Shown piece after piece: positions 147-3,149 of a DNA stretch of 64,000 nucleotides. Origin of the DNA: an uncultured Fidelibacterota bacterium (GTDB lineage Bacteria; Fidelibacterota; UBA8477; JABMPR01); contig CALBFA010000073.1 in assembly GCA_937888365.1 (NCBI GenBank), positions 1-64,000 of the forward strand, read 5' to 3'. A model generated the notes under the pieces. That model was not told where the DNA came from, ran no database searches, and saw nothing but the letters and a program-made list of their open reading frames with translations. Each line of letters opens with the position of its first letter. Within the stretch, counting starts at the first letter, position 1. Position numbers and translations under genes: made by a program.

Positions 147-223
147 TGGAGCCACCCAGGAGAGTCGAACTCCTGACCTACGCATTACGAATGAGTTGCT
201 CTACCAAGCTGAGCTAGGGTGGC
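147..223 (-). tRNA. tRNA-Thr (anticodon CGU)
   Basis: The minus strand folds as a standard 77-nt tRNA. The acceptor arm is GCCACCC/GGGTGGC, the D arm GCTC/GAGC, and the T arm AGGAG/CTCCT around TTCGACT. Discriminator U is followed by an encoded CCA (147-149). The anticodon loop TTCGTAA gives CGU, reading the Thr codon ACG. The anticodon stem (ACTCA against TGCGT) contains one U-C mismatch at its central pair, which is unusual for a functional tRNA. The 280 bases between this gene and cmk-rpsA show no gene and must hold both divergent promoters. Confidence 0.93.
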
Positions 224-504: not shown

Positions 505-3087
505 TTGATTATTGCGATTGACGGACCTGCTGCGTCTGGGAAATCGACAACAGCGCAATGCGTTGCGCAAGCCCTTGGATTCCGTCATATCGATACGGGA
601 GCCATGTACAGAGCCATCACTTATTATTTCTTAAAGCATGATATCGCATATGCTTCCCAAGAGGCTGTTCGCAAAGCGTTTGATGATTTAGAGATGCGCG
701 TCGAATACAAAGACACGATTCAAGAAACTTATATCAATGATCAATTATTGAATGAGGAGTTGAGAACCGTCGCTGTTACTGAAAAAGTCAGCGCTGTCAG
801 TGCCCTTGCGTATGTGCGTCATAAAATGGTGGATTTGCAGCGAAAAATAGCGCAAAATTATGATGTAGTTTTAGAAGGTCGGGATATTGGGACCATCGTT
901 TTCCCCGAGGCTGATTTAAAAATATATATGATTGCCGACACAGAAACCCGTGCAAAAAGACGTATGCTAGATTTAGAAAAACAAGGTGAAATTGTATCGT
1001 TAGATATTTTAATAAAAGATATTGAAGCCCGTGATAAATATGACTCTGAAAGAAGTTTTTCACCCCTTAAACCCGCAAAAGATGCCATACAATTAGATAC
1101 GACAAAACTCTCAATCCAAGAGCAAGTCGATGATATACTTAAAAGAATTCAGACAAACATAAATGGAGGAAACTGGATGATTGAAGAACAAAAAGCGGAA
1201 ACACCTGTAGCAGAGAATGACGTTACAGAAGTCTCCGAAGAAACCTCTAACGCCGTCGAGATGATGCCCGTTGAGGAAGCCCCTGTGGAAGAGGCTAGAA
1301 CAAAAATTACGGATAAAAGAGCTGCCATGGATGAAATGTGGACGGCTGTCCGTACGGTTAAACGTGAAGATATCGGTGATGATTTAGAGGGTGATGCACA
1401 AAATCACTCAGATCTTCAAACGCTTTACGATCAGGCCATGAAATCCTTTGAACAAAAATCATTGGTTCAAGGAAAAGTCGTTTCAATCAATGATCGAGAT
1501 GTCATCGTTGATATTGGTTTTAAGTCAGAGGGCATTGTCTCTAAAGAAGAGTTTAACACAGAGAATATGCCAGAAGTGGGTGCAGAGATCGAATTATTTT
1601 TAGATCGCATGGATGACCGTAAAGGCACCATCATGTTATCGAAGAAAAAAGCTGACTTTTTACGTATTTGGAAAACTGTTAAAGACAAATTTGAAGCCGA
1701 AGAACTTATTACCGGAACAATTTCACGTCGTATAAAAGGCGGTATGGTTGTTTCTTTAAATGGTATTGATGCCTTTTTACCTGGCTCTCAGCTTGATGTT
1801 CGTCCAATTAGTGATTTTGATTCCTATGTTGGAAAGACGATGGAATTTAAAATTGTTAAAGTGAATGAATTTCGCAAAAATATCGTGTTGTCACGTAAAG
1901 AAATTTTACAAGAAGCCTTACATGAAAAACGCCGCGAACTCTTACTCACAATTGAACCGGGTAGCATTTTGGAAGGTCGTGTAAAGAATATCACCGACTT
2001 TGGTGTATTTGTTGACTTAGATGGTATCGACGGATTGTTGCACATTACGGACCTAAGTTGGGGTCGTGTAAATCATCCTAGAGAAGTTGTTGAAATGGGC
2101 GAAACGTTAACGGTGAAAGTTATTGAGTTTGATAAAGAGAAACAACGTGTCTCTCTTGGACTTAAACAACTTCAACCCCATCCATGGGAAAATGTTGAAG
2201 AAAAATTTCCAATCGGATCGTCAGTTAAAGGTAAAATCGTTAGTATTACGAGCTATGGCGCTTTTGTTGAAATTGAAGAAGGTGTTGAAGGACTTATACA
2301 TATTTCTGAAATTTCATGGACGCAGCATATTAAACATCCAACAGAAGTTTTTACGGCTGGCGAAGAAATCGACGCTATCATTCTTGCAATCGATACCAAT
2401 GAGCGCAAAATTAGCCTGGGTGTAAAACAGCTTCAACCCGATCCATGGACCATCATTGAAAGCAAATTTGTTGTCGGTTCTACACATACCGGAATCGTCA
2501 GAAACTTGACTCAATTCGGCGCCTTTGTTGAACTTGAAGAAGGTATTGACGGATTAGTACATATTTCTGATTTATCCTGGACTCGTAAAATTCGTCATCC
2601 AAAAGAACTTTTACGTAAGGGTCAAGAAATTGATGTAAAAATTCTTGATATTTCTCAAGAAAATCGCAAAATTTCTCTTGGTTTTAAACAAGTCGAAGCC
2701 GATCCATGGGATAACATAAAAGAACAATATTTTATTAACTCTGAACACAAAGCGACCGTTTTCAAAATTCTTGAAAAAGGTATCATTTTAACGTTCCCCG
2801 AAACGGATGTAGAAGGGATTATTCTTCTTAATCATTTCCGTAAGAAAGAACGTACAGAAGTGATTGCTGAATTTACCATCGATCAGGTTTTGGATGTTAA
2901 AGTCGTACTTGTTGACAGTAACGAAAAGAAAATTGTTGTGAGTCACGAATCAGCAATCAAAGATAAAGAACGTGAAAATATTGAAGAATATATTCGCGGT
3001 CAAGAATCAGATGATGCTGATAAACTGATTATGCCTGAAGAACTCCTCAAACGTTTTAGCAAAGAGGAAGATGAAGCAGCCCAATAA
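505..3087 (+). CDS. cmk-rpsA: Cytidylate kinase fused to 30S ribosomal protein S1
   Basis: One 860-residue frame joins two normally separate proteins. Residues 1-224 are a full-length (d)CMP kinase, which phosphorylates CMP/dCMP with ATP. It has the P-loop GPAASGKST at 7-15, the DTGAMYR nucleotide-binding motif at 30-36 and EGRDIGT at 124-130. After an acidic linker (about 225-315) come six S1 OB-fold repeats, the middle ones with the usual VKNITDFGVFVDLDGIDG type pattern. S1 unfolds and anchors mRNA on the 30S subunit. The start is TTG, with AAAGG nine bases upstream. An internal ATG with its own strong Shine-Dalgarno sits exactly at the domain junction, so free S1 may also be made. cmk and rpsA are neighbours in many bacteria, which makes loss of the stop codon a simple origin for the fusion. 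A terminator follows the gene. Confidence 0.95.
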   Translation: MIIAIDGPAASGKSTTAQCVAQALGFRHIDTGAMYRAITYYFLKHDIAYASQEAVRKAFDDLEMRVEYKDTIQETYINDQLLNEELRTVAVTEKVSAVSALAYVRHKMVDLQRKIAQNYDVVLEGRDIGTIVFPEADLKIYMIADTETRAKRRMLDLEKQGEIVSLDILIKDIEARDKYDSERSFSPLKPAKDAIQLDTTKLSIQEQVDDILKRIQTNINGGNWMIEEQKAETPVAENDVTEVSEETSNAVEMMPVEEAPVEEARTKITDKRAAMDEMWTAVRTVKREDIGDDLEGDAQNHSDLQTLYDQAMKSFEQKSLVQGKVVSINDRDVIVDIGFKSEGIVSKEEFNTENMPEVGAEIELFLDRMDDRKGTIMLSKKKADFLRIWKTVKDKFEAEELITGTISRRIKGGMVVSLNGIDAFLPGSQLDVRPISDFDSYVGKTMEFKIVKVNEFRKNIVLSRKEILQEALHEKRRELLLTIEPGSILEGRVKNITDFGVFVDLDGIDGLLHITDLSWGRVNHPREVVEMGETLTVKVIEFDKEKQRVSLGLKQLQPHPWENVEEKFPIGSSVKGKIVSITSYGAFVEIEEGVEGLIHISEISWTQHIKHPTEVFTAGEEIDAIILAIDTNERKISLGVKQLQPDPWTIIESKFVVGSTHTGIVRNLTQFGAFVELEEGIDGLVHISDLSWTRKIRHPKELLRKGQEIDVKILDISQENRKISLGFKQVEADPWDNIKEQYFINSEHKATVFKILEKGIILTFPETDVEGIILLNHFRKKERTEVIAEFTIDQVLDVKVVLVDSNEKKIVVSHESAIKDKERENIEEYIRGQESDDADKLIMPEELLKRFSKEEDEAAQ
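1165..1179 (+). promoter_or_regulatory. Internal ribosome binding site and ATG for stand-alone S1
   Basis: GGAGGA at 1165-1170 lies seven bases before an in-frame ATG at 1177, codon 225 of the fusion, at the boundary between kinase and S1. Read through, these bases encode Gly-Gly-Asn-Trp. This looks like the original rpsA start retained after fusion and may give a separate S1 product. The function is inferred; the sequence is directly visible. Confidence 0.65.
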
Positions 3088-3117: not shown

Positions 3118-3149
3118 AAAAAGCGAGTCAAATAGGCTCGCTTTTTTTT
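3118..3149 (+). terminator. Rho-independent terminator after cmk-rpsA
   Basis: A 10-bp stem (AAAAAGCGAG pairing with CTCGCTTTTT) around a 9-base loop is followed by further T residues, 30 bases after the stop codon. The next 140 bases up to the YbbR gene contain no gene and probably its promoter. Confidence 0.9.

Follow-up and report, generated by a model that had tools for sequence, protein, structure and literature searches.

A conserved S1 start signal inside fused cmk-rpsA genes of Candidatus Neomarinimicrobiota

What does a gene produce when it encodes both cytidylate kinase (Cmk) and ribosomal protein S1 in one uninterrupted frame, and carries a Shine-Dalgarno (SD)-like site and an in-frame ATG where the two parts meet? 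Such a gene lies in a 64,000-nucleotide stretch of DNA from an uncultured Fidelibacterota bacterium (here, the window). An earlier note on this DNA had proposed that the locus could make both a Cmk-S1 fusion and free S1, with the ratio of S1 to kinase set by internal initiation; if only the fusion were made, a nucleotide kinase would ride on every ribosome carrying S1.

Architecture of the locus and identity of its parts

The frame runs through 860 codons from a TTG start without an internal stop and matches both Cmk and S1 profiles (Table 1), in agreement with the earlier reading of cmk and rpsA as a single 860-residue frame. The description of the domain junction was also accurate: the GGAGG-ATG pair sits at the Cmk/S1 border, where the sequence reads AAT GGA GGA AAC TGG ATG ATT, with seven bases (1170-1176) separating GGAGG from the in-frame ATG.

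Table 1. Features of the fused cmk-rpsA locus, in window coordinates
Feature	Position	Strand	Basis
Cmk-S1 single frame	505..3087	+	ORF, 860 aa, TTG start
Cytidylate kinase domain, residues 1-217	505..1155	+	TIGR00017, PF02224, PDB Cmk matches, confident AlphaFold model
Counterpart of the junction block in which synonymous choice is frozen, about codons -22 to +6	1111..1194	+	placed by alignment from relatives (block measured in f1 g2, f2, f6 g7 and f6 g17)
GGAGG, Shine-Dalgarno-like site within the frame	1165..1169	+	duplex energy -9.3 kcal/mol
TGG codon; TGA (cmk stop) in unfused L021, L040, L105, L109 and L134	1174..1176	+	comparison
In-frame ATG, putative start of free S1	1177..1179	+	sequence and comparison with relatives
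Acidic low-confidence linker, the S1 N-terminal extension	1180..1398	+	residues 221-275 with pLDDT < 50
Conserved intragenic motif, possible hairpin	1244..1276	+	common to 19/19 f1/f2 loci
Helix directly before the first S1 domain	1399..1440	+	DSSP helix 299-312; start of the 6h4n_y alignment
S1 domains (ribosomal protein S1) plus C-terminal tail	1441..3084	+	profiles, structure alignments, model
Terminator-like hairpin and T run, 3' of the frame	3118..3146	+	hairpin scan

Both parts are readily assigned. Residues 1-214 score 215.1 bits against TIGR00017 (cut-off, 135.55), placing them in the Cmk family; this part also matches PF02224 and solved Cmk structures such as 1q3t (E 7e-50), with which its P-loop and other conserved segments align, so that kinase activity is predicted. 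The S1 part scores 741.5 bits against NF004953, above the equivalog cut-off of 720, and aligns with 9zcd_A and 6h4n_y (ribosome-bound S1), which identifies it as bS1. The model for IspH-RPS1 fusions, NF000907, was rejected, since it reaches 510.8 bits against a cut-off of 624 and its best stretch falls only within the S1 part. A genome-wide TIGR00017 search, in which this locus scores 219.9 bits, and the corresponding search for S1 returned neither a further Cmk nor another full S1. Cmk and full S1 are thus encoded in the window genome only by this joint frame.

An AlphaFold model built with 29 related sequences predicts the Cmk domain with confidence; confidence is very low for residues 221-275, after which come a helix at residues 299-312 and the S1 domains. 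It is at this helix that E. coli S1 aligns, from its residue 7 onward (6h4n_y alignment). In E. coli, the first 106 residues of S1 suffice for binding to S2 and the ribosome (PMC3296737), and by analogy the helix may have an S2-binding role. Because it lies well apart from the Cmk domain, roughly 50-200 residues downstream of the internal start, the fusion would plausibly be able to bind ribosomes. The linker from the internal start to the first S1 domain is acidic, rich in Glu, Ala and Pro, and differs in length among fused loci, between about 47 and 201 residues.

A scan of the first 4.2 kb of the window found promoter-like sites at no more than chance level. Terminator-like sites occur in numbers near the shuffle mean, and for the one behind the frame it is the position that is suggestive. 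Divergent from the fused gene is a tRNA-Thr with a CGT anticodon (147-223, minus strand), which adjoins a 13-pair hairpin at 108-138.

Distribution of the fusion and stop-codon loss

The relatives of the window belong to Candidatus Neomarinimicrobiota (Fidelibacterota, Marinimicrobia). The search for other cmk-rpsA single frames that the earlier note had recommended was productive: the genes are fused in 34 of 115 distinct phylum loci, across seven families (f1, f2, f4, f6, f16, f21 and f29). All 42 loci of other groups fetched with the phylum set (Chlorobi, Ignavibacteria, Balneolaceae, Fibrobacteres, KSB1 and others) have separate genes, giving 34 fused loci among the 157 distinct loci in which both genes are present. 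By genome, 218 of the 245 in the phylum search had a Cmk match and 34 an intact fused junction; G007, G016 and G106, with the two parts on different or broken contigs, were left unjudged. In the window's own family and order, fusion is nearly universal (18 of the 19 distinct f1/f2 loci). On a tree of 122 rows, there were at least seven changes between the fused and separate states. Left out were L204 (without the first S1 domain), L198 (without the start) and ten loci without a usable Cmk (L002, L003, L016, L025, L042, L051, L086, L103, L122 and L138).

Outside the phylum, we searched 376 genomes, 330 of which had a Cmk match, and examined frame lengths for 300 of these 330. Eight frames reached at least 700 aa, and all were retrieved; among them are four Cmk-S1 fusions (G411, G441, G512 and G541) and one Cmk-IspH-S1 frame (G612). 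Four shorter long frames that were also retrieved (G494, G326, G342 and G251) contain no in-frame S1. The G541 gene is fused where a member of its family, G304, has an in-frame TAG. No SD site was found at the G541 junction, and these two genomes may come from a group that initiates without SD sites.

Unfused loci with both genes in one frame indicate how the fusion probably came about. These are L021 and four loci of f6/g17 (L040, L105, L109 and L134), in which a single TGA, abutting the rpsA ATG, parts cmk from rpsA. Their junctions read GGA GGA AAA TGA ATG and GGA GGA ACT AAC TGA ATG, compared with GGA GGA AAC TGG ATG in the window, whose own fusion thus hinges on one codon, a TGG one base away from TGA. 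Other fused loci have TTA, TTC, TTG, AGA or AAA before the start. Replacement of TGA by a sense codon suffices for fusion, and loss of the stop codon from a coupled pair of genes is thus the apparent origin of the fused frame. An in-frame arrangement is not the rule, given that the rpsA frames relative to cmk are close to even among 71 unfused phylum loci (27/24/20). L021, from genome G002, is the sole unfused member of the fused f1/g2 clade, and its TGA junction has three extra bases.

The junction is constrained at the nucleotide level

We expressed the strength of each initiation site as its duplex energy to the anti-SD, CACCTCCTTT. This sequence was found in the 16S rRNA gene of a fused relative, G036, and was taken from there because no 16S rRNA gene was found in the window's assembly. 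Among 400 internal in-frame ATGs in the 53 window ORFs, only three have a site as strong as the one at the junction (-9.3 kcal/mol), this one included; of the 53 putative gene starts, two do. At the junction of all 34 distinct fused loci, there is a start codon with an SD-like site (33 ATG, 1 GTG), located 21-39 nt 3' of the Cmk domain, with energies from -5.8 to -11.9 kcal/mol. The rare strength of the internal site, its position at the domain border and the recurrence of the same arrangement in 34 of 34 fused loci argue that it is not there by chance. The internal SD is also stronger than the one at the upstream cmk start in 31 of 32 fused loci (medians, -9.3 versus -3.2), two further loci having no readable cmk start. 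The weakest sites are those of family f29 (-5.8 kcal/mol in three loci), and the GTG start is that of f4.

Raw counts associate a strong SD with fusion (fused versus unfused, p 3e-8), but the association was not significant in phylogenetically independent pairs (median p 1), and the rpsA start was taken to be whichever candidate scored best in the interval from the end of Cmk to the first S1 domain, a choice that favours strong sites. Because the start was clearly misplaced in several unfused loci, this comparison was limited to starts no more than 110 nt after Cmk, which kept 71 of 81 unfused phylum loci.

Stronger evidence comes from synonymous codons. We examined degenerate columns in which the amino acid is invariant and asked how often a single codon is used. 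In f1 g2 (13 complete loci), this holds for 15 of 20 columns in codons -26 to +6; over the rest of the gene, the figure is 47 of 563 (Fisher p 5e-12). Similar excesses near the junction are seen in f2 (17/21 versus 48/144 elsewhere), in f6 g7 (14/18 versus 28/124) and in the unfused f6 g17 (12/18 versus 19/105). The junction glycines of g2 are encoded by GGA in 14/14 and 13/14 loci, while each of eight other invariant Cmk glycines uses two or more codons. Near-frozen synonymous sites in all four lineages, with or without fusion, indicate that the junction is under selection as a nucleotide sequence, as an initiation signal would be, and a functional rpsA start would be expected to impose such constraint on both kinds of lineage. 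The local fold at the junction is ordinary (z -0.46 and 0.01). Taken together, the start in all 34 fused loci and the synonymous constraint present the pattern sought in a dual-product gene of the ClpB/InfB type, namely, a conserved in-frame internal start with its initiation signals.

A second conserved element lies further downstream. A 33-base stretch (e.g., L018:1159-1191) is common to 19 of 19 f1/f2 loci, beginning 21-40 codons after the internal start, and its third codon positions hardly vary although the amino acids do. A full match occurs once per genome in four f1/f2 genomes tested; there is none in G036. This motif belongs to S1 rather than to the fusion, since the unfused L021 has it too. 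It may form a hairpin: the window (z -3.0) and L054 (z -3.1) fold better than their shuffled versions, but seven further relatives do not (z -0.2 to -0.9), and one pair has changed on both sides. Rfam searches gave only the tRNA at the window start and, around the junction, only sub-threshold snoRNA matches by e-value, so the motif corresponds to no listed RNA family. An autogenous S1 operator would call for a conserved, structured RNA at the rpsA start to which S1 binds; the frozen synonymous block and the motif downstream of it are conserved, but the support for structure is weak, and a role of the motif as a translational operator for S1 is a guess.

Probable products of the fused gene and comparable systems

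We infer that both proteins are made, and put the probability at roughly three in four that free S1 arises by internal initiation while the fusion supplies Cmk, following stop loss in a coupled cmk-rpsA pair. The ancestor would have had the two genes translationally coupled in one frame, with the cmk stop directly 5' of the rpsA ATG. A point mutation removing that stop would let ribosomes elongating from 505 continue into S1 and produce the fusion, while the rpsA initiation region (SD, ATG and flanks) would be retained inside the frame, where new 30S subunits could load at 1165-1179 and make ordinary S1 alone. Free S1 is probably the larger product, because the internal start is much stronger than the cmk start. 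With no other cmk and no stop between the parts, the fusion would be the source of all Cmk activity, and free Cmk could be obtained only by proteolysis or frameshifting. The idea of a dual product thus gains support from the start signal in every fused locus and from the nearly frozen junction, with the proteins and their ratio still predicted from sequence. The pattern named in advance as speaking against it, a conserved fusion with a degraded SD and ATG, does not appear phylum-wide, and the nearest approaches are f29 with its weak SD, f4 with its GTG and, out of the phylum, G541.

Several other explanations deserve consideration. Should the missing stop reflect a sequencing or assembly error, the genes would in fact be separate. 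The proximity of the window's codon to TGA, together with the TGA in G002 of the same family, fits this reading; yet sense codons of the kinds given above stand at this position in 18 of 19 f1/f2 loci and in 34 loci in all, which rules out read-level error as a clade-wide explanation. The fused loci also derive from assemblies made independently of one another, one of them the single-contig genome G036. An error, conceivable at the window's own codon, is on the whole very improbable. A more substantive alternative is that only the fusion is made, every S1-bearing ribosome then carrying a cytidylate kinase and the internal site being a relic or simply the code for a Gly-rich linker. The unbroken frame and the lack of second gene copies would agree with this, and so would the modelled flexible linker and intact helix ahead of the first S1 domain, which should permit ribosome binding. 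A linker code, however, does not account for nearly frozen synonymous sites or for the near-exclusive use of GGA at the junction glycines of g2, when other invariant Cmk glycines vary in codon, and the same freezing in unfused sisters makes a relic, preserved over such divergence, hard to credit. We therefore regard a fusion-only gene as unlikely. Least probable of all is an additional supply of free Cmk through programmed +1 frameshifting, prompted by the SD inside the frame: most fused loci do have a +1-frame stop around the ATG (TAATGA or ATGA, as in GGA GGA AAC TTA ATG ACC), but f2 loci have none, and ATGA or TAATG is expected wherever a codon starting with A, or TTA, adjoins ATG.

A further possibility concerns selection rather than products, and is a variant of our preferred reading whose probability does not exclude it. 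Here, stop loss would be near neutral: the fusion would have no special role, Cmk would work just as well with an S1 tail, and S1 would come from the internal start. The repeated changes of state, the presence of at least one separate member within the fused clade and the near-even frames of unfused rpsA genes all point this way. Against it, the fused state has been kept over long branches across f1 and f2, and this persistence suggests that the fusion is at least harmless and perhaps useful. With the junction under constraint as nucleic acid, a lack of stop codons there is in itself no proof of selection for a fusion protein, and we consider near-neutrality about as likely as not. Under a bolder proposal, the junction would act as a regulatory switch, with S1 controlling its own internal start through the frozen block and the hairpin-like motif, and with Cmk-S1 produced throughout from the upstream start. 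We find this doubtful. If it were true, the share of ribosomes bearing a tethered CMP kinase would vary with free S1, pyrimidine nucleotide supply would be linked to translation capacity, and the loss or regain of one stop codon would turn this coupling on or off in evolution.

Under our preferred reading, internal initiation together with the fusion, the locus resembles several known systems in part. A Cmk-S1 fusion is already annotated as one gene in Treponema pallidum (TP0279 type; PMC3373638, PMC3570794), of a different phylum; as in the window, both proteins fall in one gene, which is listed at two lengths, 829 and 863 aa. Published IspH-RPS1 fusions of anaerobes (PMC4746011; NCBIfam NF000907) likewise join a metabolic enzyme to S1, with no separate copies and with the enzyme active when fused, although the partner is IspH instead of Cmk; in the text of PMC4746011 available to us, the term "start codon" is absent and no discussion of internal initiation was found. 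ClpB and InfB yield a long and a short protein from two start sites in one frame (PMC11005335). Those are isoforms of one protein, whereas here the short product would be a whole ribosomal protein, to which the long one adds a separate enzyme. Coupling by termination-reinitiation (PMC6728339) is the likely state of the unfused relatives with in-frame TGA-ATG; the fused loci lack termination, so S1 would need de novo initiation inside a translated frame. In the literature searched, we found no report of Cmk-S1 genes that retain an internal start for S1, and PMC3711429 mentions neither rpsA nor cytidylate. What is new here is that stop loss recurs while the internal start is conserved, and that an intragenic motif further downstream is conserved as well.

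If this reading is right, a coupled pair can fuse and yet keep separate expression of its second gene, repeatedly, in one essential operon, and stop loss with a retained internal start offers a concrete path by which an operon can give rise to a fusion protein. There is also a warning for annotation, as gene callers would list a single protein of 860 aa, in which the true S1 goes unnoticed. Whether a nucleotide kinase sits on ribosomes in these bacteria, and on which fraction of them, becomes a testable question.

Two further loci show Cmk in other combinations. The triple Cmk-IspH-S1 fusion of G612 (L229:1282-4515, 1077 aa; the IspH part was named by reading the sequence) has an SD-like site before an in-frame ATG where its S1 part begins. 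In G364 (L228:830-2350), Cmk is fused to what reads as an acyltransferase-like domain, and a separate rpsA lies downstream.
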